A DNA stretch of 34,537 nt from Lysobacteraceae bacterium (GTDB lineage Bacteria > Pseudomonadota > Gammaproteobacteria > Xanthomonadales > Xanthomonadaceae), in contig JAGWUF010000024.1 of the NCBI GenBank assembly GCA_028868545.1, positions 1 through 34,537 of the forward strand, read 5' to 3'. Position numbers and translations under genes: made by a program. A model generated the notes under the pieces. The model was given only the letters and a program-made list of their open reading frames with translations. It made no database searches and was not told the DNA's origin. Every line of letters begins with the position of its first letter. The stretch's first letter is position 1. Below are positions 2,427 to 32,563 of the stretch, piece by piece.

Positions 2427-3848
2427 TTACACACGGTAATGCGCGCCCAGGCTGTCCTTGCGCTTCCACGCGGCGTCCAGCAACGCCGTTGCCAGCGCGG
2501 CCTGCCATCCCTGCAACCCGGCACAGGCCTGAAGCCCTTCCCGCAACCCGTGTTCCGTGCGCAGCGGCCCCATCGCCTGCATCAGCCACGTCCGCACGGC
2601 CGCCAGCTCGGCACCCGCCAGCGACGGCGGGCGATGCAGCAGCCGGTAATGGCCTCCGTCCACCGCATCCGCCGGCAGCCCCCGCAGCAGCGCACCCAGC
2701 CGACGCCCGAACACCACGCCCTCCAGCAGCGAATTGCTAGCCAGGCGGTTCGCGCCATGCACGCCGTTGCAGGCCACTTCGCCCACCGCGTACAGGCCCG
2801 GCAGCGAGCTGCGGCCGTCGGCGTCGACGACGATCCCGCCCATGTGGAAGTGCGCCGCCGGTGTCACCGGGATCGGCTGCACGCGCGGGTCGATGCCATG
2901 ATCCATGCAGGCCTGGAACACGGTCGGGAACTTGCGCGGGAAATCGGCACCGACCACGGCCGCATCCAGCAGCGCCCCACCCTCCTGGCATGCCTGCCAG
3001 ACGCGACGCGCGACGATGTCGCGCGGGGCCAAGTCACCCAGCGGGTGCACGCCGGCCATCAGCGCGCGGCTCTTGCTGTCGCGCAGGGTGGCACCGGCAC
3101 CGCGCAGCGCCTCGGTCACCAGCGGCAGGCTGTGCAGGCCGGGCAAGGCCAACGCGGTGGGGTGGAATTGCACGAACTCCAGGTCACGCAGGGCGACACC
3201 CGCCGCCTGCGCCAGCGCCAGCCCGCTGCCATCGGCATCGGCCGGGTTGCTGGTCTGCGCGAACAGGCCGCCGATGCCGCCGGTGGCCAGCACCACCGCA
3301 CGGCCATGCACCACCGTGCGGGTGCCGTCGGCTTCGGTCAGGCAGACACCGCAGGCGCGGCCATCGCGCAATACCAGGCCGTCCACTTCGACACCGGCGC
3401 GCCGGGTGATGTGGCCGGCAGCGCGCGCAGCAGCCACCAGCGCCTCCATCACCTTCGCTCCGGTGGCATCGCCGCCGGCGTGGACGATGCGCGGGCGATC
3501 GTGCCCGCCTTCGCGCCCGAATTGCAGGCGGCCATCGGGTTCGCGGTCGAACGCCACGCCGATCTCCTGCAACCATTGCACGGCATCGGCCGCGCAGGTG
3601 GTCAACAGATCGACGATCGCCGCGTCGTTGTGGAAGCTGCCGGCCACGCAGGTGTCATGCGCGTGCGCCTGCGGGCTGTCGCCGGGGTCGATGGCTGCCG
3701 CGATGCCACCCTGCGCCATCGCGCTGGCGGCACCGCGCGCACCGGGTGCACGGGTCAGCAACAGCACCGGCGCGGGCGCAGCCGCCAATGCGGTGGCCAA
3801 CCCGGCAATGCCACCGCCGACGACGAGGATGGGTTGTTCCGCGTTCAC
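2427..3848 (-). CDS. nadB: L-aspartate oxidase NadB
   Basis: This FAD enzyme oxidises L-aspartate to iminoaspartate, the first step of de novo NAD synthesis, and passes it to NadA. The 473-aa protein opens with the FAD dinucleotide-binding motif VVGGGIAGLATA and keeps SAMAQGGIAAA, the FHPTAL segment, the LAPRDIVARRVW segment and a C-terminal NGVHGANRLASNSLLEG motif. The GTG start at 3848 shares the four bases GTGA with the nadA stop, so the two genes are translationally coupled; the same frame runs open far into nadA but that part is not NadB-like. At 473 residues it is shorter than the usual 520-540, mainly at the C-terminal helical end, yet it still finishes with the family's R-x-S-x-GAHYR signature. 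I judge it functional. Confidence 0.93.
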   Translation of the reverse strand: MNAEQPILVVGGGIAGLATALAAAPAPVLLLTRAPGARGAASAMAQGGIAAAIDPGDSPQAHAHDTCVAGSFHNDAAIVDLLTTCAADAVQWLQEIGVAFDREPDGRLQFGREGGHDRPRIVHAGGDATGAKVMEALVAAARAAGHITRRAGVEVDGLVLRDGRACGVCLTEADGTRTVVHGRAVVLATGGIGGLFAQTSNPADADGSGLALAQAAGVALRDLEFVQFHPTALALPGLHSLPLVTEALRGAGATLRDSKSRALMAGVHPLGDLAPRDIVARRVWQACQEGGALLDAAVVGADFPRKFPTVFQACMDHGIDPRVQPIPVTPAAHFHMGGIVVDADGRSSLPGLYAVGEVACNGVHGANRLASNSLLEGVVFGRRLGALLRGLPADAVDGGHYRLLHRPPSLAGAELAAVRTWLMQAMGPLRTEHGLREGLQACAGLQGWQAALATALLDAAWKRKDSLGAHYRV

Positions 3849-4873
3849 ACCTTTTCGCCGCGCCCCACCGCCAGCATGCGATCCAGCGCGCGCCGCGCCT
3901 TCACGATCACGTCCGCCGGCACGTGGATCTGGTTGCGCATGTCGCGCAGGCAGGCATGGATGTTGGGCAGGGTGATCCGCTTCATGTGCGGGCACAGGTT
4001 GCAGGGTTTGATGAACTGCACCTGCGGGAACTGGTTGCGCAGGTTGTCGGCCATCGAGCACTCGGTGATCATCGCCACCCGCTCCGGCTTTTCCTTTTCC
4101 AGCCACTTGCCCATGGCGCTGGTGGAGCCGACGAAATCGGCCTCGGCCAGCACCTCCGGCGCGCATTCCGGGTGCGCCACGATCTTCGCGTCGAAACGCT
4201 CGCGGGTGTGGCGGGCCTCCATCGCGGTGAACTTCTCGTGCACTTCGCACACGCCGCTCCACAGCACCAGCTCGACGTCGGTCTGGGTGGCCACCCACGA
4301 CCCCAGGTAGCGGTCAGGCAGGAAAATGACCTTGCGCACGCCGAACTCCGCGGCAATCGCGTTGACCACCTGCACGGCATTGGCCGATGTGCAGCAGGCG
4401 TCGGACTCGGCCTTCACCGCCGCGCTGGTGTTGACGTAGCTGACCACCGGCGTGCCGGGATGCTGTGCACGCAGCGCGCGCACGTCGGCGGCGGTGATCG
4501 AGGAGGCCAGCGAGCAGCCGGCTTCCAGGTCCGGGATCAGCACGGTCTTGCCGGGCGCGAGGATCTTCGCGCTTTCAGCCATGAAGTGGACGCCGCACAG
4601 CACGATCAGGTCGCTGTCGCATTTGGCCGCGGCCTGCGCCAGCGCCAGCGAATCGCCGGTGATGTCGGCCACGCCGTGGAAAATCTCCGGTGACTGGTAG
4701 CTGTGCGCCATGATCACCGCGCCGCGTTCGCGCTTGAGTTCCTCGATGGCGGCCACCCACGGCAAGTGCAGCGGCACCTCCATGCAGGGCATCAACTGTT
4801 CAAGCTTTTCGACCAGGGGTGCGTAACGGGTTTCGAGTTCCGGGGACCAGGCCGGTACGGAGAGTGCGTTCAT
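3845..4873 (-). CDS. nadA: Quinolinate synthase NadA
   Basis: NadA condenses iminoaspartate with dihydroxyacetone phosphate to quinolinate, using an oxygen-sensitive 4Fe-4S cluster. The 342-aa product has MAHSYQSPEI near residue 55, the first cluster cysteine in IVLCGVHFMAESAK, the catalytic region DLEAGCSLA, YVNTSAAVKAESD, a second cysteine region in WSGVCEVHE, and the last cysteines in FIKPCNLCPHMKRITL. Length is normal for the family. The ATG at 4873 has only a weak GAG upstream. The gene lies 74 bases downstream of the chorismate mutase-ubiT gene on the same strand, with a hairpin in between, so it may be partly expressed by readthrough from the FNR-controlled unit. Confidence 0.95.
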   Translation of the reverse strand: MNALSVPAWSPELETRYAPLVEKLEQLMPCMEVPLHLPWVAAIEELKRERGAVIMAHSYQSPEIFHGVADITGDSLALAQAAAKCDSDLIVLCGVHFMAESAKILAPGKTVLIPDLEAGCSLASSITAADVRALRAQHPGTPVVSYVNTSAAVKAESDACCTSANAVQVVNAIAAEFGVRKVIFLPDRYLGSWVATQTDVELVLWSGVCEVHEKFTAMEARHTRERFDAKIVAHPECAPEVLAEADFVGSTSAMGKWLEKEKPERVAMITECSMADNLRNQFPQVQFIKPCNLCPHMKRITLPNIHACLRDMRNQIHVPADVIVKARRALDRMLAVGRGEKV

Positions 4874-4947: not shown

Positions 4948-5814
4948 TCAGGCTTTGGCGTGGTAAGCCGTGCGTGCGGCATTGGCGAAACGCGCGCCGC
5001 GGTTGAGGGCGATGCGCAACCCCAGCGGCACTTGTTCCCACGGCAGGCGGTCCAGCAGGTTGCGCGCGGTCAGGCCCAGTTCGACATCGCCGGTCAGCAC
5101 CAGCCGGCGCTGGAAAAACAGCGTGTCGGCATCTTCCAGCCGCCCCGCCAGCAGCAGCAGGTCGGTGGCGGTACCGCGCACGGTGGCTTCGGCGGGGGCG
5201 TCCACCACCAGCAGGCGCTCGCCCTGCAATTCCACCACCCAGCGCAGGCCCAGGTCCGACACTTCGATGCCCAGCCGGCGACCCGCCATGAACTCCAGCG
5301 CATCGCCGGCCAGCGGCCCGGCCAGCACCTTGGCCATGGCGCGCTCCAGCAGGCGGGCCTGCACTGCAGGCGGCACCACTTTCAACAGCGGGGCGAGGCG
5401 ACGCGGCGGCGGCAGCAGCCGCAGCAGGGAATGCGCCGGTGACGGCGTGGCGGTGGCGTGCGTGTGCATGGTGGCCGGCATCATGCGGCCTGCGTCGGCA
5501 TTACCACCTTGATCCAGATCAGAATCCAGACCTTGGGCACGACAGGCCGCGCCGATGGCCACCCCCAGCACGCCGCTGGCAGTGCCGGGTGCCAGGCCCA
5601 CGACGGCGGCCAGCGCCTCGGCACGACGGCGGATGCGGGCTTCGCGCAGGCCATCGCGCCCTTGCACGCCTGCCTGCACCTTCAACCGGCCCGCCAAACG
5701 CGCCAGCCGTGCACGTGCGGCCAGCAGCAGAACCAGCCCATCGTCCACGCCATCGATGGCGAAACGCACCGGGGCCAAGCCCGCAGGCGTCAAATCCGGG
5801 GTGCGATCAGCCAT
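4948..5814 (-). CDS. ubiT: Chorismate mutase (AroQ)-UbiT (SCP2) fusion protein
   Basis: This 288-aa protein has two domains. Residues about 8-96 are an all-helical AroQ-type chorismate mutase domain: R17, R34, K45, D54, R57, E58 and Q94 fall at exactly the spacing of E. coli chorismate mutase R11, R28, K39, D48, R51, E52 and Q88, while the S84 position is Ala90. A His/Thr/Pro-rich linker (about 110-128) joins it to residues about 130-280, an SCP2-type lipid-binding domain closely resembling E. coli UbiT (YhbT), including GRRLGIEVSDLGLRW and DADTLFFQRRLVLTGD. UbiT is an accessory factor of oxygen-independent ubiquinone synthesis, probably presenting the hydrophobic intermediates. The ATG at 5814 has an AGAGGAAG ribosome site and overlaps the preceding gene by eight bases. 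What the mutase domain does here is unknown; prephenate formation, pyruvate-lyase chemistry as in PchB, or chorismate sensing are all possible. Confidence 0.85.
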   Translation of the reverse strand: MADRTPDLTPAGLAPVRFAIDGVDDGLVLLLAARARLARLAGRLKVQAGVQGRDGLREARIRRRAEALAAVVGLAPGTASGVLGVAIGAACRAQGLDSDLDQGGNADAGRMMPATMHTHATATPSPAHSLLRLLPPPRRLAPLLKVVPPAVQARLLERAMAKVLAGPLAGDALEFMAGRRLGIEVSDLGLRWVVELQGERLLVVDAPAEATVRGTATDLLLLAGRLEDADTLFFQRRLVLTGDVELGLTARNLLDRLPWEQVPLGLRIALNRGARFANAARTAYHAKA

Positions 5815-7069
5815 GTCGTCTTCCTCTCCGTGCAGCGTCGTCAAAAAACCGGTTCGCGCGCCAGCGGGCTGCCAGTTGCACACCCACACCCGCCGCATGG
5901 GCCAGCAGCAGCGCCAGCCCCGCCCCATTGGCAGGTATCCAGCCCAGGCACGCCATGACCAGCATCAAGCCGGCAACAAGCTGTGCACCCAGTACCCCCC
6001 ATTTATCACGTGCCGGCACCAGCCATTGCACGCCCGGCAAGTGCACGCCACGCCCGCAGCGCCGCTGCAATTCGATCCAGCCAAGGAAGCCGGTGATTTC
6101 CAGTTGCATCCCGGTCACCAGCAGCGGCAACCCGATGGCCAGCACCAGCACGCCCGCCAGTACGTCCTGCGCGTCGCTGGCCAGCAATACCAATGCCGCA
6201 CTGGCCAGTGCCAGCAGGCCGCAACGCCAGAAATACAGCAATGGCACGATGCGCAACTTCGCGGCACGCAGTTGCAGCAACAAGCCGCCCAGCGCGAACG
6301 CCAGCAACAGCAGCCCGCCGGCGATCCGCGCACCCGGCAGCGCGCGCCCGGCCAGCGCCATCACCAGCATCGCCAGCAACAGCCCGTACAAGGCGATTTG
6401 CCATGCCCCCTGCGCGCGCTGCGGGGCCGGCCCGGCCCCCTGGAACATCGGTGCCACCACTCGTGCCACCGCCGCCAGCAGGCCCAGCACCCAGCCCAGC
6501 ACGCCCCAGCCGGCATGCACGTCGGTGAACAGCGGCTGCGCGATGACGACCGTACCCGCCAACCCCAGCACCAGCAGCACGCCCAGCCCGGCGGTGACCA
6601 GCGCCGCCAGCAGCGCGCAGCCCATTCCCCAGCGCAGGAAGCGCTGCCCGCCGACCGCCCACAGCCCCGGCAACAGGATCGCCAGCAGCCACAGGAACGC
6701 GCCGCCCAGCACCACGCCACCCCAGTGCGGCGACACCAGCGCAGGCCAGCGCAGCGCGACCACCAGCAGCGCCGCCCCCGCATTCAACAGTGCATGCAGC
6801 AGCGCCGCTGCCACGTGCCCGCCGCGCACCCGCACCTGCACCGCCACCGGCAAAAATTGCAGCAGGCTGCCGAACATGGCATTGCCCAACACGCCCAGGG
6901 TGAAAACATGCACCAGTACCAGCGTCGACGCATTCCAGCGCGATGCCAGCACGCTGCCGTCGTCCAGCACCAGCAGTACACCCGCCACCATGCCCCACAG
7001 CGACGCCGACAGCAGGAACCGGCGCGGCATGGCCGGCGTCGGTGCCTGCTGCATCACCAGTTTGGTCAT
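5807..7069 (-). CDS. Polytopic membrane protein, NnrS / haem-copper oxidase subunit I-like
   Basis: The 420-aa product is almost entirely hydrophobic, with roughly twelve predicted membrane helices. Histidines sit in or next to helices: H54 in LVHVFTLGVLGNAMFG, others in GGHVAAALLHALL, FTDVHAGWGVLGW and LLLAHAAGVG. This H-x-F-T-L-G pattern followed by G-x-L-L-Q-F-L-P recalls NnrS proteins and haem-copper oxidase subunit I, families that bind haem or metal in denitrifiers. I did not find a full NnrS signature, so the family is a best guess. The gene follows the DUF2249 gene by ten bases and overlaps the chorismate mutase-ubiT gene. With the shared FNR-box promoter this points to a role in nitrite/NO metabolism or quinol chemistry at the inner membrane. 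Confidence 0.6.
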   Translation of the reverse strand: MTKLVMQQAPTPAMPRRFLLSASLWGMVAGVLLVLDDGSVLASRWNASTLVLVHVFTLGVLGNAMFGSLLQFLPVAVQVRVRGGHVAAALLHALLNAGAALLVVALRWPALVSPHWGGVVLGGAFLWLLAILLPGLWAVGGQRFLRWGMGCALLAALVTAGLGVLLVLGLAGTVVIAQPLFTDVHAGWGVLGWVLGLLAAVARVVAPMFQGAGPAPQRAQGAWQIALYGLLLAMLVMALAGRALPGARIAGGLLLLAFALGGLLLQLRAAKLRIVPLLYFWRCGLLALASAALVLLASDAQDVLAGVLVLAIGLPLLVTGMQLEITGFLGWIELQRRCGRGVHLPGVQWLVPARDKWGVLGAQLVAGLMLVMACLGWIPANGAGLALLLAHAAGVGVQLAARWRANRFFDDAARRGRRHG

Positions 7070-7079
7070 TGCGGCGGGC

Positions 7080-7298
7080 TCAGCCTGCGGGGCACACGAT
7101 CACCACCCGCACCCCGCCATCGGCACACGGTTCGGAACGCCAGCGCAGGCCACGCGTGTCCAGTACTTCCAGCAACGGGGCCGGCAGCAACGGGGTCAAT
7201 ACTTCCAGCGCTTGCCCCGATTGCAGCGCATCGGCAGCCGCCAGCGCCCGAACCAGCGGCTCGGGTGCCGGCAGGTGGCGAAAATCCAGCCGGATCAT
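7080..7298 (-). CDS. DUF2249 domain protein
   Basis: This 72-aa protein is a single DUF2249 domain. It starts MIRLDFRHLPAPEPLVRALAA and continues with L-x-S-G-Q-A-L-E-V and a P-x-P-L-L-E-V-L segment. The domain is distantly like TusA/SirA, but where TusA has a sulphur-carrying cysteine in its L-D-x-R-G-L-x-C-P motif, this protein has Ala-Pro, so persulphide transfer by that residue is excluded. DUF2249 proteins recur beside nitrite and NO metabolism genes, with no settled function. The ATG at 7298 overlaps the porin stop codon (ATGA), so it is translationally coupled. An upstream in-frame extension reads into the porin gene and is rejected. Confidence 0.8.
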   Translation of the reverse strand: MIRLDFRHLPAPEPLVRALAAADALQSGQALEVLTPLLPAPLLEVLDTRGLRWRSEPCADGGVRVVIVCPAG

Positions 7299-8512
7299 TG
7301 CGCCAGCGCGCGGTTGCCCTTCCATTCCACTTGCAGCCATAGCTTGGTGTTGTCGCGCGATAAGTGGTCGGCGCGATAGTCCGCCACTTTCAGCATGCCG
7401 TTCAAGCCCCCCGGCAGCGGGAAGCCCAGCGAGGCATTCCACTCGCTGCCGTAATGCAGGCCGCCGACATCGGCGCGGTAGTCGTGCCAGGTCACCGCCC
7501 AGTTGAGCTTGCCGGCCGCCTTGCCACTGCCGAATTTGCCACCGACGCCGAAGTAGCGATCTTCCAGGCCCTTGGCCGGGGTAGCCAGGAACTGGTCATC
7601 CCAGCCATTGAACGCGTGCAGGGTGGCCAGCGGCGTTTGCAGCGCCACCACGCCATTGCTGCCCAGATGTTCCCAGCCGGCACGGAAGGTGGTTTTGCCC
7701 TGCGTCCAGGTGGGTTCCAGCAGCCAGTAATTCACGCTGAAACGGGCCGGGTTGCGGGCGTGGTCGGTTTGCCGTGCGTATTCGGCCGACCAGCCGAAGC
7801 CCTGCCCGTCCGCAGCCACCGCGCCGGCCCAGCGCAGGCCGTAGGTCGCGCTGGACGCGCTGGCCACGTCGCGGTCGTCGTGCAGGTAGGCATAGCCGAT
7901 CCACTGCTGGCGACCGCGCTTCCACGCCACGTTGACCAGATGGGTGTCGAGGCGGCGCTCGCGCGCCAACCTGTTCAGCGCCTTGTCGCCGGCCGAACGA
8001 TGCACTTTGTCCAGCCAGTAATAGCTCAAGGTCAGATCCTTGACCGGCTTCCACTGGGCGGCGAAGGCATCGAAGGTCTGCTCGTTCTGACGCCAACCCA
8101 CGTTCCCCACCCAGCGCTGGTTGTCCAGCAGGATGCGCTGGCGGCCCAAGCTCACGCCGCCCTGCGCATTCTTCCAGCCGATCCAGGCCTGGTTGAGTTC
8201 GGCGCCGGTGGGATCCATCACCAGCGGGTATTGGGTCTTGCCGTTGGCACCGCTGTTGTAATTGCCGAAGCCGGCCACGCCCCCGCCCTCCAGCAGCACC
8301 GTCCAGCCGGCAGCCGGGGCCAGCCGCAGGCCGGCGCGCAGGCGTGCGGTGGTGGCGTCGGCATCACGGGCAAAACCGTCGTCATTGACCATCTCGCTGC
8401 GCACCCGCAAATCCCATTCAAAAGCAGACTTCGGGGCATCGGCCGCATGCAGTGCCGGCATGGCCATCAAGGCCAGGGTCAGGGCGGAAAACCGGAGCGC
8501 AAACATGGACAT
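7295..8512 (-). CDS. Alginate-export family outer-membrane porin
   Basis: The 405-aa protein has a signal peptide (MSMFALRFSALTLALMAMPALHAA-D) and then a run of alternating amphipathic beta strands typical of the alginate-export (AlgE-like) barrel. Recognisable parts are FEWDLRVRSEMVNDDGF, LRAGLRLAPAAGWTVLLEG, LNQAWIGWKNAQGGVSLGRQ and RWVGNVGWRQNEQTFD. It ends in a barrel strand (WLQVEWKGNRALAQ). Despite the family name, such porins occur in respiratory clusters without alginate genes, and none are seen here, so the solute is unknown; nitrite or another small anion is a guess. The ATG at 8512 has a strong GGAGG site. It is the first gene of a leftward unit that starts about 21 bases after the transcription start predicted from the nearest FNR box. 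Confidence 0.85.
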   Translation of the reverse strand: MSMFALRFSALTLALMAMPALHAADAPKSAFEWDLRVRSEMVNDDGFARDADATTARLRAGLRLAPAAGWTVLLEGGGVAGFGNYNSGANGKTQYPLVMDPTGAELNQAWIGWKNAQGGVSLGRQRILLDNQRWVGNVGWRQNEQTFDAFAAQWKPVKDLTLSYYWLDKVHRSAGDKALNRLARERRLDTHLVNVAWKRGRQQWIGYAYLHDDRDVASASSATYGLRWAGAVAADGQGFGWSAEYARQTDHARNPARFSVNYWLLEPTWTQGKTTFRAGWEHLGSNGVVALQTPLATLHAFNGWDDQFLATPAKGLEDRYFGVGGKFGSGKAAGKLNWAVTWHDYRADVGGLHYGSEWNASLGFPLPGGLNGMLKVADYRADHLSRDNTKLWLQVEWKGNRALAQ

Positions 8513-8567: not shown

Positions 8568-8581
8568 TTGATGCAAGTCAA
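8568..8581. promoter_or_regulatory. FNR/DNR-type box 1 (TTGATGCAAGTCAA)
   Basis: This matches the FNR consensus TTGAT-N4-ATCAA at nine of ten defined positions. It is centred at 8574.5, suited to class II activation of the leftward porin unit. The FNR-type regulator encoded at 12938-13708 is the obvious candidate to bind it. Confidence 0.8.
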
Positions 8582-8605
8582 GATTCGCGGCGGCCCTTCC
8601 CGCGG

Positions 8606-8619
8606 TTGACCCAAATCAA
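8606..8619. promoter_or_regulatory. FNR/DNR-type box 2 (TTGACCCAAATCAA)
   Basis: It matches the FNR consensus at nine of ten positions and lies in the middle of the divergent region. It is 38 bases from box 1 and 49 from box 3 (centre to centre). It could act as an upstream class I site for either direction or as a second regulator's site. Confidence 0.75.
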
Positions 8620-8654
8620 GCAAGCACTCCGGCAACCCGCATCACTGGCATTAT

Positions 8655-8668
8655 TTGACCTGAATCAA
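8655..8668. promoter_or_regulatory. FNR/DNR-type box 3 (TTGACCTGAATCAA)
   Basis: It matches the FNR consensus at nine of ten positions, centred at 8661.5. A class II start would fall near 8703, leaving a leader of about 39 bases before the nirK ATG at 8742. The -10 region around 8692-8697 (GATGCT) is weak, as expected for an activator-dependent promoter. Confidence 0.8.
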
Positions 8669-8741: not shown

Positions 8742-10268
8742 ATGAAATCCGCAGTTCGGTATGCCACCCTTGCCTTGGCCGTTGCCGCCACGCTGGGACT
8801 TTCCGCCTGTCGCATCGAACAGCCGAACCCGGCTCCGAACGGTGCCGTGCCGCACGAAGAAACCGGCGGCTCCGCCAAGGGCGATTTCGGGCCGCCGGTG
8901 GGCGAACCGATCGAGGCGGTTCTGACCTCGCCGCCGCACGTGCCACCGCCGACCGGTCGCAGCACGCCGGCCAAGGTGATCGTGTCGCTGGATGTGGTTG
9001 AAAAGGAAATGCCGATTTCCGAGGGCGTGACCTACACCTTCTGGACGTTCGGCGGCACCGTGCCGGGCAGCTTCATCCGCGTGCGCCAGGGTGACACCGT
9101 GGAATTCCATCTGCGCAACATGCCGGACAGCAAGATGCCGCACAACATCGACCTGCACGGGGTCACCGGCCCCGGCGGCGGCGCGGCCTCCAGCTTCACC
9201 GCGCCCGGTCACGTCAGCCGCTTCAGCTTCAAGGCACTCAACGCCGGCCTGTACGTCTACCACTGCGCCACCGCGCCGGTGGGCATGCACATCGCCAACG
9301 GCATGTACGGCCTGATCCTGGTCGAGCCGCCGGAAGGTTTGCCGAAGGTGGATCGCGAGTTCTACGTGATGCAGGGCGATTTCTACACCACCGGCAAATA
9401 CCGCGAAAAGGGCCACCAGGGTTTCGACATGGAGAAAGCCATCGACGAACACCCCACCTACGTGCTGTTCAACGGCATGGAAGGCGCGCTGACCGGCGAC
9501 AAGGCCCTGCAAGCCAAGACCGGCGAAAAAGTGCGCCTGTACGTGGGCAACGGCGGCCCCAACCTGGTGTCCAGCTTCCACGTGATCGGCGAGATCTTCG
9601 ACAAGGTCTGGTACGAAGGCGGCACCCGCTTCCAGGAAAACGTGCAGACCACGCTGATCCCGGCCGGCGGTGCGGCGATGATGGAATTCCACATGGAAGT
9701 GCCGGGCAGCTACGTGCTGGTCGATCACAGCATCTTCCGCGCCTTCAACAAGGGCGCACTGGCAATCCTCAAGGCCGATGGCAAGGAGCGCAAGGACATC
9801 TACTCGGGCAAGGAAGTGGACGCCGTGTATCTGGGCGATCAAGCCGCCGGCACCAACCGCGCACCGGTGGCCGCCGCTGCCGCCGCCTTCAAGGAAGGCA
9901 AACTGACCAAGGAAGACCAGATTGCCGCCGGCAAGGTGCTGTTTGCCGGCACCTGCTCCACCTGCCACCAGCCGGACGGCAAGGGCATGGAAGGGGTGTT
10001 CCCGCCGCTGGCGGGCTCGGACTTCATCAAGGCCAACCCGAAGCGGCTGCCTGAAATCATCACCCACGGCCTGGTGGGCCCGGTGAAGGTCAACGGCAAG
10101 GACTACAACTCCAACATGCCGCCGATGGCGCAATTGACCGACGACGAAGTGGCCAACATCGCCACCTACGTGCTCAACAGCTGGGGCAACCCGGGTGGCC
10201 AGATCAGCCGCGAAGATGCGGCCAAGGCCCGCGCCGCCAAGCCGGCCAGCGCGTCGTCGGGGCACTGA
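8742..10268 (+). CDS. nirK: Copper nitrite reductase NirK, lipoprotein with C-terminal cytochrome c domain
   Basis: NirK reduces nitrite to NO, the defining step of denitrification. The 508-aa protein has a lipoprotein signal with lipobox LSAC (C23), so it is probably lipid-anchored in the periplasm. Two cupredoxin domains follow. Type 1 copper ligands are H134, C175, H183 and M188; type 2 ligands are H139, H174 and H329; the catalytic pair is D137 and H280. Spacing fits the Alcaligenes enzyme. Residues about 390-485 are a class I cytochrome c domain with haem motif CSTCH (405-409) and a likely axial Met in SNMPPM. Such three-domain enzymes are known from Ralstonia; the haem domain tethers the electron donor. 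The ATG at 8742 has a GAGGAAG site. It leads an operon with nirV and a SCO gene, behind FNR box 3. Confidence 0.97.
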
Positions 10269-11649: not shown

Positions 11650-12885
11650 TCATGCCCAGAGCCACAACCCCAGGGCGAACGCCAGCACCATCGCCACCAC
11701 GCCCGGCAACAAGCGCCACAGATAGGCGCGCCCGCCGTTCACCCCGGCCAACAGCAGTTTGACCGCCGAATTCGCGGCCAACGCCAACACCACGCCCGGC
11801 AGCACGTCATCGACAGCAGCGCGCCCGGTTGCCACCAACTGGGCCGCCGACGCCGCCGCTGCATGCGCATCGGCCAGCCCCGACAGCGCCAGCACGATCG
11901 TCAGCGCCACCTCGCCCAGCCACGCCTGCAACCCGGCCGACGCCAGCATCACCGTGGCCAGCACCCCCACGAACAGCAGCGCCTGTCTCGGTTCGAACGC
12001 CCTGCCCACCGTTGCAGCGGCATCACTTTGCACATGCCGCGCCGCCCGTGCGGCCAGCAGGGAAAACACCACCACCGTCACCCCCGACAGCAACAGCGCC
12101 GGCCACAGCCCGGCCAGCAGCGGCGGGGACACGATCCCCACCACCACCGCCAATTGCACCACGGTGCTGACGTTCGAGAGCATGCCGGCACCGGCGCAGG
12201 CACTGGCTACGGCCGGTTCCCGGCGCGCCCGCGCACCCATCCCGGCAATGGTGGCGGCACTGGAGGCAAAGCCACCCGCCAGCCCGGCCAGCAGCAAGCC
12301 GGTGCGCGGCCCAAAAGCGCGCTGGGCGACGTGGCCGGTGGCGCTGATCGCCATCACGATCACCACCAGCAGCCACAATTTCCGGAAATTGAGCACGTGC
12401 CAGGGATCCACCGCCTGATCCGGCAGCAGCGGCAACACGATGGCCGCCGCCGCGGCCAGCAGCAGGGCATCGTGCAATTCCTGGTCGGTCAGCACGCTCC
12501 GCACGAAGCGATGCGCCCGCGATTTCGCCGCCAACAGCACCGCCACCACCACCCCCAGGCCCGCTGCCAGCACCAGATCCCGCATCGCCAGCACGCCCAG
12601 CAAAAACACCACCAGCATCGCCATCTCGGTGGTCAGGCCCGGATCCTTGGCGCGGCTGGCACGATAGCTGGCCAGCGCCAGCAACACCACGAACGCCCCG
12701 GCCACGGCGATGCCGATGCCGCCGAGCAGGTTGGCCACCGCCCCGGCCAGGCCCAGCAACGCAAAGGTGCGTACCCCCGCCACGCTGGCCTCTCCATTGG
12801 CGCGTCGGCGCTCGCGCTCCACGCCCACCAGCAGGCCCAGCCCCACGGCCACGGCCAGTCCTTGCAACGTTTCCCAATCGGTCAT
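11650..12885 (-). CDS. MgtC/SapB-DUF4010 family membrane protein
   Basis: The 411-aa protein is polytopic. The first part is MgtC/SapB-like, with the signature GLGLLVGVERERRR near residue 15 and GVRTFALLGLAGAVANLLGG. The second part is a DUF4010 domain with LAGGFASSAATIAGMG and LSNVSTVVQLAVVVG. Members are inner-membrane proteins of uncertain function, sometimes linked to magnesium or acid stress. The ATG at 12885 gives the MTDWETLQG start; a longer open frame upstream lacks similarity. It lies 52 bases downstream of the FNR-type gene on the same strand, separated by a short hairpin. I see no reason to tie it to respiration beyond position. Confidence 0.85.
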   Translation of the reverse strand: MTDWETLQGLAVAVGLGLLVGVERERRRANGEASVAGVRTFALLGLAGAVANLLGGIGIAVAGAFVVLLALASYRASRAKDPGLTTEMAMLVVFLLGVLAMRDLVLAAGLGVVVAVLLAAKSRAHRFVRSVLTDQELHDALLLAAAAAIVLPLLPDQAVDPWHVLNFRKLWLLVVIVMAISATGHVAQRAFGPRTGLLLAGLAGGFASSAATIAGMGARARREPAVASACAGAGMLSNVSTVVQLAVVVGIVSPPLLAGLWPALLLSGVTVVVFSLLAARAARHVQSDAAATVGRAFEPRQALLFVGVLATVMLASAGLQAWLGEVALTIVLALSGLADAHAAAASAAQLVATGRAAVDDVLPGVVLALAANSAVKLLLAGVNGGRAYLWRLLPGVVAMVLAFALGLWLWA

Positions 12886-12912
12886 GCCGGCAGCTTTGCC
12901 GAAACCACCGCG

Positions 12913-12930
12913 GCGGGCAAGCCTGCCCGC
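12913..12930 (-). terminator. Weak hairpin after the FNR-type gene
   Basis: GCGGGCA (12913-12919) pairs with TGCCCGC (12924-12930) around a four-base loop, eight bases after the regulator's stop codon. No T-run follows on the leftward strand, so it is a weak terminator candidate only. Confidence 0.3.
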
Positions 12931-12937
12931 AACCGGC

Positions 12938-13708
12938 TCAGGCGCGGTTGCGCTTGTGCGGATGCGGGCCGGCGCCGCCTTCGCAACCACTGGCGGCGGC
13001 TTTCAAGGCGTGGGTATCCAGGATTCGCACCCGCCGGCCATGCACCTCGATGATCCCGTCCTCGTGCAGGCGGCTGAAGCCGCGGCTGACGGTTTCCAGC
13101 ACCAGCCCGAGGTAACGCGCGATCTCGTCGCGGCTCATCGGCAGCTGGAAATCGTCGGCCGGGCGGCCGATCCGGCGATAGCGATCGCTCAGGCCGTGCA
13201 CGAACAGGGCGATGCGCTCGCTGGCCTGACGCCGCGACAGCACATCGACATGGTCATGGTCGCGGTCTGCGCTTTGGCCGATCACCCGCAGCAACTGATG
13301 CTGCAGGCTGGGCACCTGCGCCGCGATCGACGACAGATGCGCATAGGGCAGTTCGCAGACGCGGGCATCGCCCAGCGCCACCGCTTCGCAACGATGCTTG
13401 CCGCTGCCCACGGCATCCAGCCCGAACAATTCCCCGGGCAGGTGGAACCCCAGCACATGTTCCTCGCCCGCCTCGTTCAACACCACGGTCTTGAACACGC
13501 CTTCGCTGGCCACGTACACCGCACGCAGCGGATCGCCGGCACGGAACAGGCTTTCGCCCTTGACCAGCGGCTTGCGCCGCTGCACCACGGCCTCCAGCCG
13601 CGAAACATCCTCGGCGTCCACCCCCGCCGGCAGGCACAGCATCTGCAACGAGCACTCCGCGCACGTACGGCGCAGGCGCGCCAGATCCAGCGGAATGGGG
13701 TCAGTCAT
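12938..13708 (-). CDS. fnr: FNR-type oxygen-sensing transcription regulator
   Basis: The 256-aa protein is a CRP/FNR regulator with an N-terminal cysteine cluster, a cyclic-nucleotide-type sensory barrel, a dimer helix and a C-terminal helix-turn-helix. C16, C19, C25 and C118 fall at exactly the spacing of E. coli FNR C20, C23, C29 and C122, so it should carry a 4Fe-4S cluster and respond to oxygen directly. This argues against the cluster-less DNR or NNR type. The recognition helix region SRDEIARYLGLVLETVSRGFSRL keeps the E-x-x-S-R pattern that reads TTGAT half-sites. It diverges from ccoN, and boxes of that type lie before ccoN and between the porin and nirK. Start ATG at 13708; an upstream in-frame extension is not FNR-like. 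Confidence 0.93.
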   Translation of the reverse strand: MTDPIPLDLARLRRTCAECSLQMLCLPAGVDAEDVSRLEAVVQRRKPLVKGESLFRAGDPLRAVYVASEGVFKTVVLNEAGEEHVLGFHLPGELFGLDAVGSGKHRCEAVALGDARVCELPYAHLSSIAAQVPSLQHQLLRVIGQSADRDHDHVDVLSRRQASERIALFVHGLSDRYRRIGRPADDFQLPMSRDEIARYLGLVLETVSRGFSRLHEDGIIEVHGRRVRILDTHALKAAASGCEGGAGPHPHKRNRA

Positions 13709-13818
13709 GATCTGCACAAATATGGGAGAGCCACGGTTACAATTATGGGCGATTCTGCTGGAACTTTCCCTCGTCACCCCTCTTGCATGAACGCACCGGC
13801 CCATGCAACCCCTCTAAA

Positions 13819-13832: not shown

Positions 13833-13887
13833 GCCTTGGCAACAAGGCCTGGCGTAGCCTTGCACAGCTTTTACCTTGGAGAACCGT

Positions 13888-15327
13888 ATGCAAGCCTCAC
13901 CCGGCACATACAACGATAAAGTCGTCCACCAGTTCGCGGTGGCCACCGTGATCTGGGGCATCGTCGGCATGGCGGTCGGCGTGCTCTGTGCCGCCCAGCT
14001 GTACTGGCCGGCGCTGAATTTCGACACCCCGTACCTGACCTACAGCCGGATCCGCCCGCTGCATACCAACGGCATGATCTTCGCTTTCGGCGGCTCGGTG
14101 CTGTTCGCCACGTCGTTGTACGTGGTGCAGCGCACCTGCCATGTGCGGCTGATCTCCGACAAGCTGGCGCAGTTCGTGTTCTGGGGCTGGCAGGCGGCGA
14201 TGGTGGGCGCGGTCATCACCCTGCCGCTGGGCATCACCCAGAGCAAGGAATACGCCGAGCTGGAATGGCCGCTGGACGTGCTGATCGCGATCGTCTGGGT
14301 GGCCTACGGCTGGCTGTTCTTCGGTACCCTGGCCAAGCGCCGCACCAAGCACATCTACGTCGCCAACTGGTTCTACGGCGCCTACGTGATCGCGGTGGCG
14401 CTGCTGCACATCGTCAACAACCTGGTGATGCCGGCCGGGCTGTGGAAGTCGTACTCGGTCTACAGCGGCGCGGTCGATGCGATGGCGCAGTGGTGGTACG
14501 GCCACAACGGCGTGGCGTTCCTGCTCACCGTCGGCTATCTGGCGATGATGTACTACTTCGTGCCGAAGCAGGCGCAGCGCCCGATCTACTCCTACCGTTT
14601 GTCGATCGTGCACTTCTGGGCGCTGATCTCGATCTACATGTGGGCCGGCCCGCACCACCTGCACTACACCGCGCTGCCGGACTGGGCGCAGTCGGTGGGC
14701 ATGGTGTTCTCGGTGATCCTGCTGGCACCCAGCTGGGGCGGCGCGATGAACGGCATCCTCACGCTCTCGGGTGTGTGGCACAAACTGCGCACCGACCCGA
14801 TCCTGAAGTTCCTGATCGTGGCGATCAGTTTCTACATGATCGCCACCTTCGAAGGTCCGCTGCTGTCGATCAAGACGGTCAACTCGCTGTCGCACTACAC
14901 CGACTGGACCATCGGCCACGTCCACGCCGGCACCCTGGGCTGGGTGGCGATGATCTCGATCGGCTCGCTGTACTCGCTGTACCCGCGCCTGCTGGGCCTG
15001 AACGGCATGTACTCGACCAAGCTGATCGACACCCATTTCTGGATGCATACCATCGGCGTGGTGTTCTACATCGTCTCGATGTGGATCGCCGGCATCACCC
15101 AGGGCCTGATGTGGCGCGCCACCAACCCCGACGGCACGCTGACCTACAGCTTCGTCGAAGGCCTGGTCGCCACCTATCCCTACTATCTGGGACGCCTGCT
15201 GGGCGGCAGCCTGATCCTGCTCGGCATGTGTCTGATGGGCTGGCACATGTGGAAGACCTGGCAGCAGTCGCAGGGTGTCGCCGTACATCCGATCCTGACC
15301 CCCGACGCCGCCGAAGCGCGGGCCTGA
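13888..15327 (+). CDS. ccoN: cbb3-type cytochrome c oxidase subunit I CcoN
   Basis: CcoN is the catalytic subunit of the high-affinity cbb3 oxidase, reducing oxygen and pumping protons at the inner membrane. The 479-aa, 12-helix protein keeps all metal ligands: low-spin haem b H59 and H346, haem b3 H344, CuB H206, H256 and H257, and the helix VII cross-link tyrosine Y250. These are each one residue below the Pseudomonas stutzeri numbers as I recall them. The ATG at 13888 follows a GGAGAA site; an in-frame TTG at 13876 would place the start inside that site and is rejected. It is the first gene of the cco locus and has an FNR box 55 bases upstream. Confidence 0.97.
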
Positions 15328-15337
15328 GGACGAGACC

Positions 15338-15952
15338 ATGGCACTTGCACACGAGAAAATCGAAAAGAACGTCGGCCTGCTGGCCATCCTGGCCGCCATC
15401 GCCGTGTCCCTGGGCGGGTTGGCGGAAATCGTGCCGCTGATGTTCCAGGCCGAGGCCATCCAGCCGCTGCCGGGCGTCAAGCCCTATCCGGCGCTGGAAC
15501 TGGCCGGGCGCGACGTCTACATCCGCGAGGGCTGCTACAACTGCCATTCGCAGATGGTGCGCACGCTGCGCTTCGAAACCGAGCGCTACGGCCATTACTC
15601 GATGGCCGGCGAGTCCGTGTACGACCGCCCGTTCCAGTGGGGCAGCAAGCGCACCGGGCCGGACCTGGCCCGCGTGGGCGGCCGCTATTCCGATGACTGG
15701 CACCGCGTGCATTTGAACAACCCGCGCGACGTGGTTCCCGAGTCGAACATGCCGTCGTTCCCGTGGCTGGCCAAGAGCAAGGTCGACGGCCCCACCATCC
15801 AGTCGCACATGCAGGCACTGAAACGGCTGGGTGACCCCTACACCGACGCCGAGATCAAGGCCGCCCCGGCCGCCGTGGCCGGCAAGACCGAACTGGATGC
15901 CGTGGTGGCCTACCTGCAAGGCCTGGGCAAGCACGCACCGCGAGGGAGCTGA
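15338..15952 (+). CDS. ccoO: cbb3 oxidase monohaem cytochrome c subunit CcoO
   Basis: CcoO passes electrons from CcoP to CcoN. The 204-aa protein has one N-terminal membrane helix (about residues 11-36) and a periplasmic cytochrome c domain with haem motif CYNCH (66-70) and axial Met138 in [10 protein letters not shown]. The family block [16 protein letters not shown] follows the haem site. It starts ten bases after ccoN, with GAGGACGAG upstream, and is followed five bases later by ccoQ. Length is normal. Confidence 0.97.
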
Positions 15953-15957
15953 ACGCA

Positions 15958-16131
15958 ATGATTTCCGGAATCGTGACCACCGTGCTGATGCTGTTGTTTA
16001 TCGCCGTCTGGATCTGGGCCTGGCAACCGCGTCTGCGGGCCGGCTTTGACGCCACCGCCCGCCTTGCCGTGGACGACACCATGCCCGAAGGCGAAGCCAT
16101 CGCCAGCACCGACTCGAGGACGCCCGCATGA
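15958..16131 (+). CDS. ccoQ: cbb3 oxidase small subunit CcoQ
   Basis: This short gene encodes 57 residues: one membrane helix (ISGIVTTVLMLLFIAVWIWAW) followed by a basic stretch and an acidic cytoplasmic tail. CcoQ stabilises the CcoNOP complex. The position between ccoO and ccoP, a GAGGGAGC ribosome site and the ATGA overlap with ccoP support it. The W-x-W-x-W end of the helix and the length are typical. Confidence 0.93.
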   Translation: MISGIVTTVLMLLFIAVWIWAWQPRLRAGFDATARLAVDDTMPEGEAIASTDSRTPA

Positions 16132-17063
16132 CCACCGCATGGAACTGGTACGTCATCATCCTTGTGCTGTTCAACCTGCTGGGCATCACCTGGCTGCTGT
16201 GGTGGACATCCAAGCGCCGCCCCGGCGATCCCAAGCCGGAGGAAACCAGCCACTACTGGGACGGCGACATCACCGAGTACAACAAGCCGATGCCGCGCTG
16301 GTGGATCAACGGCTTCTACATCGCCATCGTGTTCGCCTTCGGCTATCTGTTCTGGTACGGCGGCTTCGGCACCTACCAGGGCTTCGGGCACTGGAGTTCG
16401 AAGGGCGAGCACGATCAGGAAGCGGCGGTCGCCAACGCCCGGCTGGAAAAGACCTTCGCCCCGTACAAGGGCCAGGCCATCGACGTGCTGGCACGGAATC
16501 CGCAGGCATTGAAGCTTGGCAAGTCGATTTTCGCCAACACCTGCTCCACCTGCCATGGTTCGTCGGCGAAGGGCGCCATCGGTTATCCCAACCTGACCGA
16601 CCAGATCTGGCATTGGGGCGGCAGCCCCGACCAGATCCTGCACACCGTGCTGAACGGCCGTGAAGGTGTGATGCCGGCCTGGGGCAAGACGCTGGAAGGC
16701 ATGGGCGGGCCGGATGCGGTGGACTACGTGATCGCCTACGTCCGCACCCTCGGCGAAAAGGAAGGTGCCGCGCGCACCGACTTCGCCGCCGCGCGCGGCA
16801 AGACCCTGTATGAAGGCCTCTGCGTGGCCTGCCACGGCAAGGACGGCAAGGGTGACCAGAAGGTCGGCGCACCGGATCTGACCGACAGCTACTGGCTGTA
16901 CGGCGACAGCCGTGAGCAGTTGCACGAAACCATTGCCAACGGTCGCCACGGCGTGATGCCGGCTTGGGGTACAGTATTGGGCGATACGCGTTCGCGCCTG
17001 GTGGCCGCCTATGTCTGGTCGCTGTCGCACTCATCCCAACCCGGTACCGCAACGGCGCAATGA
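16128..17063 (+). CDS. ccoP: cbb3 oxidase dihaem cytochrome c subunit CcoP
   Basis: CcoP receives electrons from soluble cytochromes or the bc1 complex. The 311-aa protein has two N-terminal membrane helices (about 5-27 and 59-80), as in Pseudomonas-type CcoP, with SHYWDGDITEYNKPMPRWW between them. Two cytochrome c domains follow, with haem motifs CSTCH (139-143) and CVACH (232-236) and axial methionines in two G-V-M-P-A-W-G repeats. It overlaps ccoQ and the next small gene by ATGA on both sides. Confidence 0.97.
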   Translation: MTTAWNWYVIILVLFNLLGITWLLWWTSKRRPGDPKPEETSHYWDGDITEYNKPMPRWWINGFYIAIVFAFGYLFWYGGFGTYQGFGHWSSKGEHDQEAAVANARLEKTFAPYKGQAIDVLARNPQALKLGKSIFANTCSTCHGSSAKGAIGYPNLTDQIWHWGGSPDQILHTVLNGREGVMPAWGKTLEGMGGPDAVDYVIAYVRTLGEKEGAARTDFAAARGKTLYEGLCVACHGKDGKGDQKVGAPDLTDSYWLYGDSREQLHETIANGRHGVMPAWGTVLGDTRSRLVAAYVWSLSHSSQPGTATAQ

Positions 17064-17353
17064 CCGACTTCACCACTCCGAGCTTCGACCACCCGCCGCG
17101 CCCGATGGCGCAGCGGATTGGGGCCATTCTCTGGCCCAGTTTCTTCGCAGCCGGGGTGGCGACGATGGTGTTTTTCGCCTTCATCGACCCGTTGGAACTG
17201 CGGGACATGACGTTCCCGCAGCTGGATATCACCCGTGGCCTGGGTTACACCATCGGGTTCTTCACCTTCTGGCTGGCGACGGCGTCGTCCAGCCTCTTCA
17301 CCTGGATCCTGCTGCGGCCCGCCAGCCGCTTCAACGGACCCAAAATCAGGTAA
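17060..17353 (+). CDS. Unnamed 97-aa two-helix membrane protein in the cco locus
   Basis: I do not recognise a named family. The protein has a short polar N-terminus, a first hydrophobic helix (about residues 20-43, ILWPSFFAAGVATMVFFAF), a loop rich in L, E and D, and a second helix (about 62-86, GYTIGFFTFWLATASSSLF), ending in basic residues. Its ATG overlaps the ccoP stop (ATGA) and it ends eight bases before the ccoG start, so it is co-translated with the oxidase. That suggests a small accessory subunit or assembly factor, comparable in position though not in sequence to small cbb3 subunits such as CcoM. Coding is supported by operon packing and helix pattern only. Confidence 0.8.
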   Translation: MTDFTTPSFDHPPRPMAQRIGAILWPSFFAAGVATMVFFAFIDPLELRDMTFPQLDITRGLGYTIGFFTFWLATASSSLFTWILLRPASRFNGPKIR

Positions 17354-17360
17354 TACCACC

Positions 17361-18911
17361 GTGAGCAAACGCATCGACATCGACCTGCTGGATTCCGGCG
17401 GCGACTCCGTCTATGTGAGTGAACGCAAGGTCTATCCGCGCGATGTGTCCGGGCGCTTCGACCGCCTGCGCCGATTGGCGGTGTTCTGGCTGCTGGGCAT
17501 GTACTACGTGTTCCCGTGGTTGTCCTGGAACGGCCGGCAGGCGGTGTTGTTCGACCTGCCGGCGCGCAAGTTCCATGTCTGGGGGCTGACCTTCTGGCCG
17601 CAGGATTTCAGCCTGCTGGCGATGCTGCTGATGATCCTGGCCTTCACCCTGTTCTTCACCACCGCGCTGGCCGGCCGCCTGTGGTGCGGCTACGCCTGCC
17701 CGCAAACCGTGTGGACGGAGTGCTTCTTGTGGATGGAACGCTGGACCGAAGGCGACCGCGCCAAGCGGATGAAGCTGGACGCTGGCCCGTGGAACCGCGA
17801 GAAGGTGTTGCGCAAGGGCGGCAAGCACATCCTGTGGCTGGTCTTTGCGCTGTGGACCGGGTTCACCTTCGTCGGTTTCTTCACCCCCATCCACAGCCTG
17901 GCCGCACGTCTGCCGGCGCTGGACTGGAATGGCTGGGAAACCTTCTGGGTGTTGTTCTACTCGCTGGCCACCTGGGGCAATGCCGGCATCCTGCGCGAGC
18001 AGGTCTGCAAGTACATGTGCCCGTACGCGCGCTTCCAGAGCGCGATGTTCGACCGCGACACCCTGATCATCGCCTACGACCCGATGCGTGGCGAGCCGCG
18101 CGGGCCGCGCAAGAAGGGCCTGGCCAGCGTGCTGCAGCGTGCCCGCGGCCTGCTCGACATCGGTGCCGCCTACGACTACGTGTTCCGTGCCAGCAAGCAT
18201 CCCAGCGCCGCCGCCGCACGGCTGCAGGCGGCCGGCACGGTGATGCTGGAGGACGCCAATGTCGATGCCGCGCCGCTGCCGAAATTCGAAACCGAACAAC
18301 TGGGCGACTGCATCGACTGCACGATGTGCGTGCAGGTCTGCCCGGTCGGCATCGACATCCGCAACGGCCTGCAGTACGAATGCATCGCCTGCGGTGCCTG
18401 CATCGACGCCTGCGACGACGTGATGGACAAGATGGGGATGCCGCACGGGCTGATCCGCTACACCACCCAGCACGCGCTGGACGGCCAGGCCGTGCACGTG
18501 GTGCGCCCGCGCATCCTGGTCTACAGCCTGCTGCTGACTGCGCTGGTATCGGCCTGGGTGTGGGGCGTGTTCCACCGCAGCCCGCTGATCGCCGACGTGC
18601 TGCGCGACCGCAATGCGCTGTACCAGCAGCAAGGCGAGCACATCAGCAACGGCTACACCTTGAAGCTGGTGAACAAGACCGATGTCGAGCACAGCTACAA
18701 GGTGACCATCCAGATCCCCGACAAATCCGCGCTGGTGCTCAAGGGCAGCCCGCTGGAAGTGCGCGTTCCTGCCGGCCAGGTATTGGCGCAGGCGGTCGAA
18801 GTGGGCAGCGACAGCCCCGTCAAGGGCCGCCACGACCTGACTTTCGTGGTCGAGGCCAGCGACGGCAGCAGCAAGGCGCAAGTGGTCAGCACCTTCTTCG
18901 GGCCGATGTGA
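17361..18911 (+). CDS. ccoG: CcoG (FixG) cbb3 assembly cupric reductase
   Basis: CcoG is a membrane iron-sulphur protein that reduces Cu(II) for cbb3 assembly. The 516-aa product shows an N-terminal membrane part with CGYACPQTVWTECF (109-121) and CKYMCPYARFQ (216-226). Two 4Fe-4S motifs follow (C317, C320, C323, C327 and C341, C344, C347, C351), then a late helix and a C-terminal immunoglobulin-like domain. Between RGEPRGPRKKG (about 243-253) and the first ferredoxin cysteine there are about 60 residues, where most relatives I remember have about ten; the extra part is helical and Ala/Arg rich. The start is GTG at 17361 with only a weak ribosome site, since the longer frame upstream overlaps the previous gene. 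Confidence 0.94.
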   Translation: MSKRIDIDLLDSGGDSVYVSERKVYPRDVSGRFDRLRRLAVFWLLGMYYVFPWLSWNGRQAVLFDLPARKFHVWGLTFWPQDFSLLAMLLMILAFTLFFTTALAGRLWCGYACPQTVWTECFLWMERWTEGDRAKRMKLDAGPWNREKVLRKGGKHILWLVFALWTGFTFVGFFTPIHSLAARLPALDWNGWETFWVLFYSLATWGNAGILREQVCKYMCPYARFQSAMFDRDTLIIAYDPMRGEPRGPRKKGLASVLQRARGLLDIGAAYDYVFRASKHPSAAAARLQAAGTVMLEDANVDAAPLPKFETEQLGDCIDCTMCVQVCPVGIDIRNGLQYECIACGACIDACDDVMDKMGMPHGLIRYTTQHALDGQAVHVVRPRILVYSLLLTALVSAWVWGVFHRSPLIADVLRDRNALYQQQGEHISNGYTLKLVNKTDVEHSYKVTIQIPDKSALVLKGSPLEVRVPAGQVLAQAVEVGSDSPVKGRHDLTFVVEASDGSSKAQVVSTFFGPM

Positions 18912-31700: not shown

Positions 31701-32555
31701 GCAGTCAAATGTGCCCGTCGTGGGATTGGAACCCTTGCGGACATACAGATTCAAATCACCGTTGTTGCCACTCGTGGTGACCTTGAAGGCGGTTGCGTCC
31801 GCAGGCACGCTGAAACTGTAGTACAGCCAGGCACCTTTGGTCTGGCTCAACCCGCTTTTTGGAAACCCGGCAACCGTGGTAGTCGTGGCTTGCACCAAGC
31901 CATATTCCGCTCGCACCACATCCGAAGTGCTGGCAGGAATCTGGTACCGATAGTAGTTATCCACCTTGCCGAGATAAGCATTATCCGAACTCGTCGTATC
32001 TTTGGGCGCATAAAACGTCTTGGTTCTGCTCGCCAGGTTCGTGGTACCGCTGGATGTATTTTTATCCACCCCGGTGTAGTTGACGTAGTGGTTATCGCTG
32101 TATGCGCTGCCGTAACTCGTACCCCCCGTCAGACGGTTGCCGGAAGCATCCACCCATGGCTCGTAGTCCACCGTGGGGTTGTAATACAGGGTGTTGGTGA
32201 CATAGTTCTGCATGTACATGTTGCTGCCACCCGTGGAATCCGTGGTCACGGACGTTCCTACGGTGATGCCATTCGCATCCGGCGTGCTGTAGTCCCCGCC
32301 CGCCGCCTTCACGATCTTGGTGATGTCCTGATTGTTCATGTTGCCCCAGGCCATCGAGCCCGAGTTGTCCAGAATGAACAGGATATTCGGTGCCACGCGC
32401 ACGCCGGTATCCAGCGGCTGGTCGGGGATCGGCACATACGTGCCAGCATGCACCGGCAGCGCCAACAGGGTAGCCATGAAGGCCGCAGGTGCCGCCCACC
32501 AACGCGTTGTGGCGGCCAGACGGCGGCGGCGGAACTGGGTGTTGAAGCTCTTCAT
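28794..32555 (-). CDS. pilY1: PilY1 pilus tip adhesin with inserted PPC-like domain
   Basis: PilY1 caps type IV pili, promotes adhesion and supports pilus extension. The 1253-aa protein has a signal peptide (about 1-37) and a von Willebrand A-like start with the metal motif DNSGSM (63-68). A segment at about 233-328 reads like a bacterial pre-peptidase C-terminal (PPC) domain ([50 protein letters not shown]). The remaining vWA-like part follows, then the conserved C-terminal beta-propeller ([41 protein letters not shown]). The calcium loop usual before YAGD is degenerate ([11 protein letters not shown]). Near the C-terminus [10 protein letters not shown] resembles another calcium loop. A GTG at 32567, overlapping the pilX stop, is an alternative start. 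Confidence 0.93.
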
Positions 32556-32563
32556 GATCAGAC

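Follow-up and report, generated by a model that had tools for sequence, protein, structure and literature searches.

A fusion of chorismate mutase with UbiT

The DNA analyzed here (the window) is a 34,537-nucleotide (nt) contig, JAGWUF010000024.1, from a Lysobacteraceae bacterium. On its minus strand, at positions 4948..5814, it encodes a protein of 288 amino acids (aa) without internal stops, in which an AroQ-type chorismate mutase (CM) domain precedes the SCP2 lipid-binding domain of UbiT. We consider it probable that this CM-UbiT protein provides a local supply of prephenate for the O2-independent hydroxylation of ubiquinone. The observations made here are the fusion itself, its active site, the predicted folds, the synteny with ubiUV, the linkage of CM and ubiT genes, and FNR-type boxes; that prephenate is required and what UbiT does are taken from published work.

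Translation of the gene starts at an ATG at position 5814, which follows GGAGAGGAAG and lies within an 8-nt overlap with the upstream gene; the long CM-UbiT form has a Shine-Dalgarno sequence of its own. The CM domain covers residues 12-96 (5527..5781, minus strand), the linker residues 97-134 (5413..5526, minus), and the UbiT domain residues 135-288 (4951..5412, minus). The preliminary description of this DNA had placed an AroQ and a UbiT SCP2 domain in one protein and proposed a domain search, which bore it out: residues 17-85 matched Pfam CM_2 (PF01817) with 34.7 bits (cut-off 27), residues 167-255 matched Pfam SCP2 with 55.3 bits (cut-off 21.3), and residues 144-261 matched the NCBIfam model for UbiT (NF047962) with 125 bits (cut-off 46.9). 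The score of the fused CM domain was below every NCBIfam cut-off for CMs. Structure prediction yielded a three-helix AroQ fold for the CM domain, for which only the monomer was predicted, and a putative UbiJ-like SCP2 fold for the UbiT domain, while the predicted local distance difference test score (pLDDT) was below 50 over residues 100-123 of the linker. Like the UbiT of Escherichia coli (YhbT), the protein has an SCP2 domain scoring above the UbiT cut-off, FNR-type boxes, and, in its relatives, ubiUV nearby; the E. coli protein has 174 aa and is mostly SCP2 (PMC6747719), whereas the fusion adds an AroQ domain and a linker in front.

Among the best 80 of 290 relatives (hereafter named loci), 79 retained a single frame spanning the CM part, a proportion that is no rate for UbiT proteins in general. 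A read-through artefact is therefore disfavoured, and the CM-UbiT fusion is real and conserved. Named relatives with fusion-type matches include Thermomonas (the nearest, 82%), Lysobacter, Stenotrophomonas, Dyella, and Rhodanobacter, as well as Frateuria, Arenimonas, Luteimonas, Pseudoxanthomonas, Xanthomonas, and others. In a sampled set of 200 genomes of the order, which overlaps the named loci, the full-length fusion was found in 23 genomes from four families; in other families, the match spanned the UbiT part only. Across 369 genomes of the class, full-length fusions were confined to the order among the matches listed.

In a phylogenetic tree, 19 fused CM domains formed one clade (support 97/95) separate from four PheA CMs, although the alignment was short, branches were long, and the placement of CMs adjacent to ubiT was weak. 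Because the fused domains cluster apart from the PheA CMs, duplication of PheA as their source was unsupported; a single fusion event would be the simplest reading. Two loci appear to be cases of decay. In one genome (G184, locus L056), ubiUV was absent, the UbiT row carried an in-frame stop, and no CM match was found beside UbiT; the locus still retains nadA, nadB, and the upstream genes. In the other (G012, locus L188), a CM piece is retained at 4100-4410 without UbiT, and the position of Lys45 reads Arg.

Conservation of the chorismate mutase active site

A profile built from the CM domains of 19 fusions out of the 23 (rows L005, L008, L011, and L019 were left out) was aligned with the CM of the E. 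coli P-protein (EcCM, 1ecm) over 83 columns without gaps. Residues R17, R34, K45, D54, R57, E58, A90, and Q94 of the fusion fell on R11, R28, K39, D48, R51, E52, S84, and Q88 of the EcCM active site. The constant offset of +6 and the replacement of Ser84 by Ala, both noted earlier from the sequence, were thus correct. Fold and catalytic set of the two proteins are in register; the fusion differs from the P-protein in the Ala, in having UbiT as its partner, and in having no prephenate dehydratase domain.

In all 23 sampled fusions, R17, R34, K45, D54, R57, and E58 were invariant; position 94 was Gln in 22 of them and His in one, and position 90 was Ala in 20. Among the 79 named loci whose frame spans the CM part, R17 and R57 were each present in 79, R34, K45, and E58 in 78, and Q94 in 77, with Asp (75) or Asn (4) at position 54. 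For analyses of 78 fusions, one locus with aberrant active-site letters (L131) and one whose CM part was not in frame (L133) were dropped. Only 10 of 84 CM columns were conserved in at least 97% of these, and six of the seven catalytic positions were among them (hypergeometric p = 3.5e-6, with relatedness ignored). Near-invariance of the active-site letters indicates that the chorismate chemistry of the fused domain is under selection; such conservation is not what one would expect of a bare scaffold, and we infer mutase activity for the domain.

The same letters bear on a regulatory role, in which the CM domain would bind chorismate or prephenate and thereby gate UbiT or the way it assembles with UbiUV; gating by chorismate had been raised in the preliminary description. 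In some DAHP synthases a CM domain has a sensing function, and those fusions likewise join an AroQ domain to another function, although the partner differs. By this analogy a gating role could be imagined, but the near-complete catalytic set, including Gln94 in nearly all named loci, goes beyond what binding alone seems to need, and we regard such a role as unlikely.

Linkage of chorismate mutase genes with ubiT outside the order

Stand-alone CM genes were surveyed in 80 of 92 UbiT-bearing genomes from other families of the class. All but six of the CM matches lay in long frames (318-789 aa), and five of the six small stand-alone CM genes were located within ~320 nt of ubiT. These five came from five families, three of them in one order. 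Within that order, 12 of 19 genomes matched a CM of the adjacent type, in a search whose query was itself a CM beside ubiT and thus favoured its like; ubiT was found within the 1.5-kb flank in 12 of 12, with 11 on the opposite strand and one on the same strand. Two of the 12 genomes carried an extra small CM gene beside which ubiT was not found. In four of five loci fetched at length, CM and ubiT are separated by an FNR-type box with 0-2 mismatches; in the fifth, the CM gene lies downstream of ubiT and a perfect FNR-type box is placed between ubiT and ubiU (counts without chance control). In the loci L190-L201, all from one order, divergent CM-ubiT pairs were seen, in several cases with an FNR-type box between the two genes.

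The linkage of CM and ubiT therefore recurs in three arrangements, i.e. by fusion, as a divergent pair, and as a same-strand neighbour. It is not general in the phylum: in none of 56 further UbiT genomes with a listed UbiT position were the two adjacent, and the nearest CM match on the contig of UbiT was at least ~360 kb away (coordinates compared by eye; the other 19 of the 75 further genomes were not comparable).

One point from this survey weighs against reading these genes as simple mutases. The stand-alone CMs adjacent to ubiT retain the R, R, K, R, and E of the active site, but all five lack an equivalent of Gln88 and most differ at Asp48, so that those checked look catalytically altered.

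The recurrent linkage also helps in weighing a general mutase, which would add CM capacity for Phe and Tyr synthesis in low oxygen while its attachment to UbiT is incidental. Both amino acids need prephenate, and in one genome (G116, 99% complete) the fusion was the sole PF01817 match; the other 22 of the 23 fusion genomes contained an additional CM domain. Against an incidental attachment stand the repeated association with ubiT in three arrangements and the decayed locus of G184, where ubiUV was lost and no CM match remained beside UbiT. We consider this explanation improbable, somewhat more so than a gating role.

Link to UbiU, UbiV, and the ubiquinone pathway

UbiU and UbiV belong to the U32 proteins. 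At least one U32 match was detected in each of the 23 fusion genomes, and two were detected in 20; the 11 panel genomes that lack an intact UbiT had none. The preliminary description had suggested a look for ubiU and ubiV elsewhere in the genome, and both are indeed encoded in the assembly of the window, on contig C20. Their adjacency to the fusion cannot be judged in this assembly because the end of C20 cuts ubiV. Across families, the typical order, present whole or in part, is CM-UbiT, nadA, and nadB, with ubiU and ubiV facing them; in some relatives nadA and nadB were undetected at this position.

The hydroxyl of anaerobic ubiquinone was reported to derive from prephenate; according to the same paper, neither the chemical fate of prephenate nor a direct use of it by U32 enzymes is established (PMC11574389). 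Another U32 protein, TrhP, requires prephenate, and a CM-only pheA restores its function (PMC6599085). UbiUV depend on UbiT and draw on a donor that is not O2 (PMC10470549). Combining these reports with the data given here, the two-domain protein would be part of the O2-independent ubiquinone pathway under FNR-type control. Its AroQ domain would convert chorismate to prephenate, and its UbiT domain would bind polyprenyl ring intermediates and associate with UbiU-UbiV in the manner of UbiJ in the aerobic complex. The reported organic oxygen donor, prephenate, would then be made beside its users and independently of the P-protein (PheA), which we infer to mean local supply or channelling.

That chorismate use is coupled to anaerobic quinone synthesis had been proposed in the preliminary description; this part of its interpretation draws good support from synteny, from the recurrence of CM together with ubiT, and from conservation of the active site. 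Its further idea, that the domain perhaps acts as a lyase yielding 4-hydroxybenzoate for the ubiquinone ring, was not supported, and it named neither the likely link to prephenate nor the box within the gene. The AroQ fold of PchB is capable of lyase chemistry, which provides a precedent, and UbiC had no match above its cut-off in any of 42 genomes. A XanB2-like chorismatase was found in 36 of the 42, including the genome of the window and 22 of the 23 fusion genomes (G041 being the one without), with matches under the FkbO/Hyg5 cut-off but E-values of 1.9e-44 or better. XanB2 was reported to make 4-hydroxybenzoate in Xanthomonas campestris (PMC5069965), and a XanB2-like chorismatase is likely another source of this compound here. 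Five genomes of the same family, rated 100% complete (G023, G040, G047, G081, and G086), matched neither UbiC nor a XanB2-like chorismatase.

Comparisons at the level of the domain also favoured a mutase. The fused CM profile scored 48.5 bits against 1ecm and 28.5 bits against PchB; CM models were matched by all 19 fused domains, the isochorismate lyase model by 11, and more weakly. Against PRK07075, the model for PchB-type isochorismate-pyruvate lyases, the fusion scored 12 bits (NCBIfam cut-off 126), and a Pfam scan of the fusion protein gave no match to Chor_lyase (PF04345, UbiC). After these comparisons with UbiC, XanB2-like chorismatases, and PchB, the lyase reading was set aside as very improbable.

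FNR-type boxes and a candidate internal start

Allowing no more than one mismatch, the window contains five FNR-type boxes, compared with 0.32 expected. Three of them (at 8568, 8606, and 8655, with one mismatch each; 8568..8668, plus strand) lie between a porin-like gene, taken as the first gene of the unit of the fusion, and nirK; one lies between fnr and ccoN, and one within the linker of the fusion. Moreover, the window has a gene for an Fnr-like regulator (12938-13804, minus strand; 208.8 bits, slightly below the subfamily cut-off of 228). The designation as an FNR-controlled unit, made before, thus appears justified at the level of sequence.

The linker box, CTGATCTGGATCAA (one mismatch; 5509..5522, minus strand), is situated within coding sequence and is read as D-L-D-Q. 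With up to two mismatches, a linker box was present in 51 of 78 named fusions, while synonymous shuffles, which preserve the peptide and the codon usage but take no account of relatedness, averaged 11.8 and never exceeded 21. In these 51, the reading frame was constant and the box was placed 95-137 nt before the PPP motif of UbiT. Permitting at most one mismatch, the count was 24 of 78 (shuffles 2.5, maximum 8). In the sampled set, a linker box was present in 15 of 23 (shuffles 2.7, maximum 7). In the 15 boxed genes of that set, GAT made up 22 of 27 Asp codons of the motif and CAA 10 of 14 Gln codons, versus 134 of 378 and 42 of 185 elsewhere in the 23 genes. This contrast is partly circular because the 15 genes were chosen by the box.

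Downstream of the box, in-frame ATG or GTG codons of the 51 genes formed two clusters, one at 44 or 46 nt and the other at 32 or 34 nt from its centre, with 49 occurrences each. In the window, the corresponding candidate internal starts are predicted at Met116 (5467..5469, minus strand; 46.5 nt from the box centre) and Met111 (5482-5484, minus strand; 31.5 nt), with spacings that recur in relatives. An internal start with a Shine-Dalgarno sequence was rejected, since a 4-nt core precedes the linker start in just 12 of 78 fusions; a short product would therefore need a near-leaderless message. Boxes upstream of the gene were found in 20 of the 78 fusions, a count without chance control and with a few starts misplaced by the start rule. 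Some fusions without a linker box, such as L093 and L137, had a perfect box upstream. In 16 of the 78, neither place held a box within two mismatches.

We predict that a second, short UbiT product arises from an internal promoter, so that long CM-UbiT would be made from the operon and short UbiT from the internal box. Presumably, the ancestral order was CM gene, FNR box, and ubiT, which became joined in frame with the box retained. More tentatively, and with somewhat less than even confidence, there may be a dedicated prephenate-supply module for O2-independent hydroxylation, in which an FNR-controlled CM, tied to UbiT time and again in the three arrangements, passes the oxygen donor straight to UbiU-UbiV; in the fused form, CM-free UbiT from the internal box would let oxygen set the ratio of donor to carrier.

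Gene neighbourhood

Upstream of the fusion and on the same (minus) strand, the unit comprises a hydrophobic protein of 420 aa (5807..7069; no match in Pfam or NCBIfam), which we presume to be NnrS-like, a DUF2249 protein with uncertain start (7080..7323; PF10006, 43.6 bits), and the outer-membrane porin-like protein (Alginate_exp; 7295..8512; PF13372, 33.2 bits), whose start was picked by eye. On the 3′ side, here and in many relatives, follows nadA (3845..4873, minus strand), and then a FAD protein with uncertain start (2427..3899, minus strand; FAD_binding_2, 271 bits) that is presumably nadB. These two genes for NAD synthesis (2427-4873) follow the fusion in many families.

The window is a low-oxygen respiration region. 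Besides the Fnr-like gene, it carries nirK, encoding a copper nitrite reductase whose C-terminal part is a cytochrome c domain (8742-10268, plus strand), and the cbb3 oxidase genes ccoN and ccoO with a FixG-type gene (13876-18911, plus strand). A DUF4010/MgtC membrane protein (11650-12990) and a PilY1-like protein that contains a PPC domain (28794-32567) are also encoded on the minus strand.

Relation to known systems and significance

No description of the CM-UbiT fusion, and none joining UbiT with chorismate mutase, was found in the literature searched, whose coverage did not extend to the 2024 PNAS study on prephenate, so that an earlier description is possible. In two quinone-pathway surveys that deal with UbiT (PMC11707229, PMC13386864), the main text mentions no fusion. 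A parallel is the ubiT-ubiU fusion of Zymomonas mobilis (PMC6747719), likewise a gene fusion within the UbiTUV pathway. There, the lipid carrier is linked to the hydroxylase, whereas CM-UbiT would link the carrier to an enzyme making the donor.

If the fused domain makes prephenate, its attachment to UbiT would provide genetic evidence, from outside E. coli, for prephenate-donor chemistry in anaerobic ubiquinone synthesis. Together with UbiUV, CM-UbiT may also serve as a reagent in which one active-site change switches off the supply of the donor. Finally, an FNR-type box within a conserved open reading frame would mean that one stretch of sequence serves both as regulatory site and as the code for a peptide linker.
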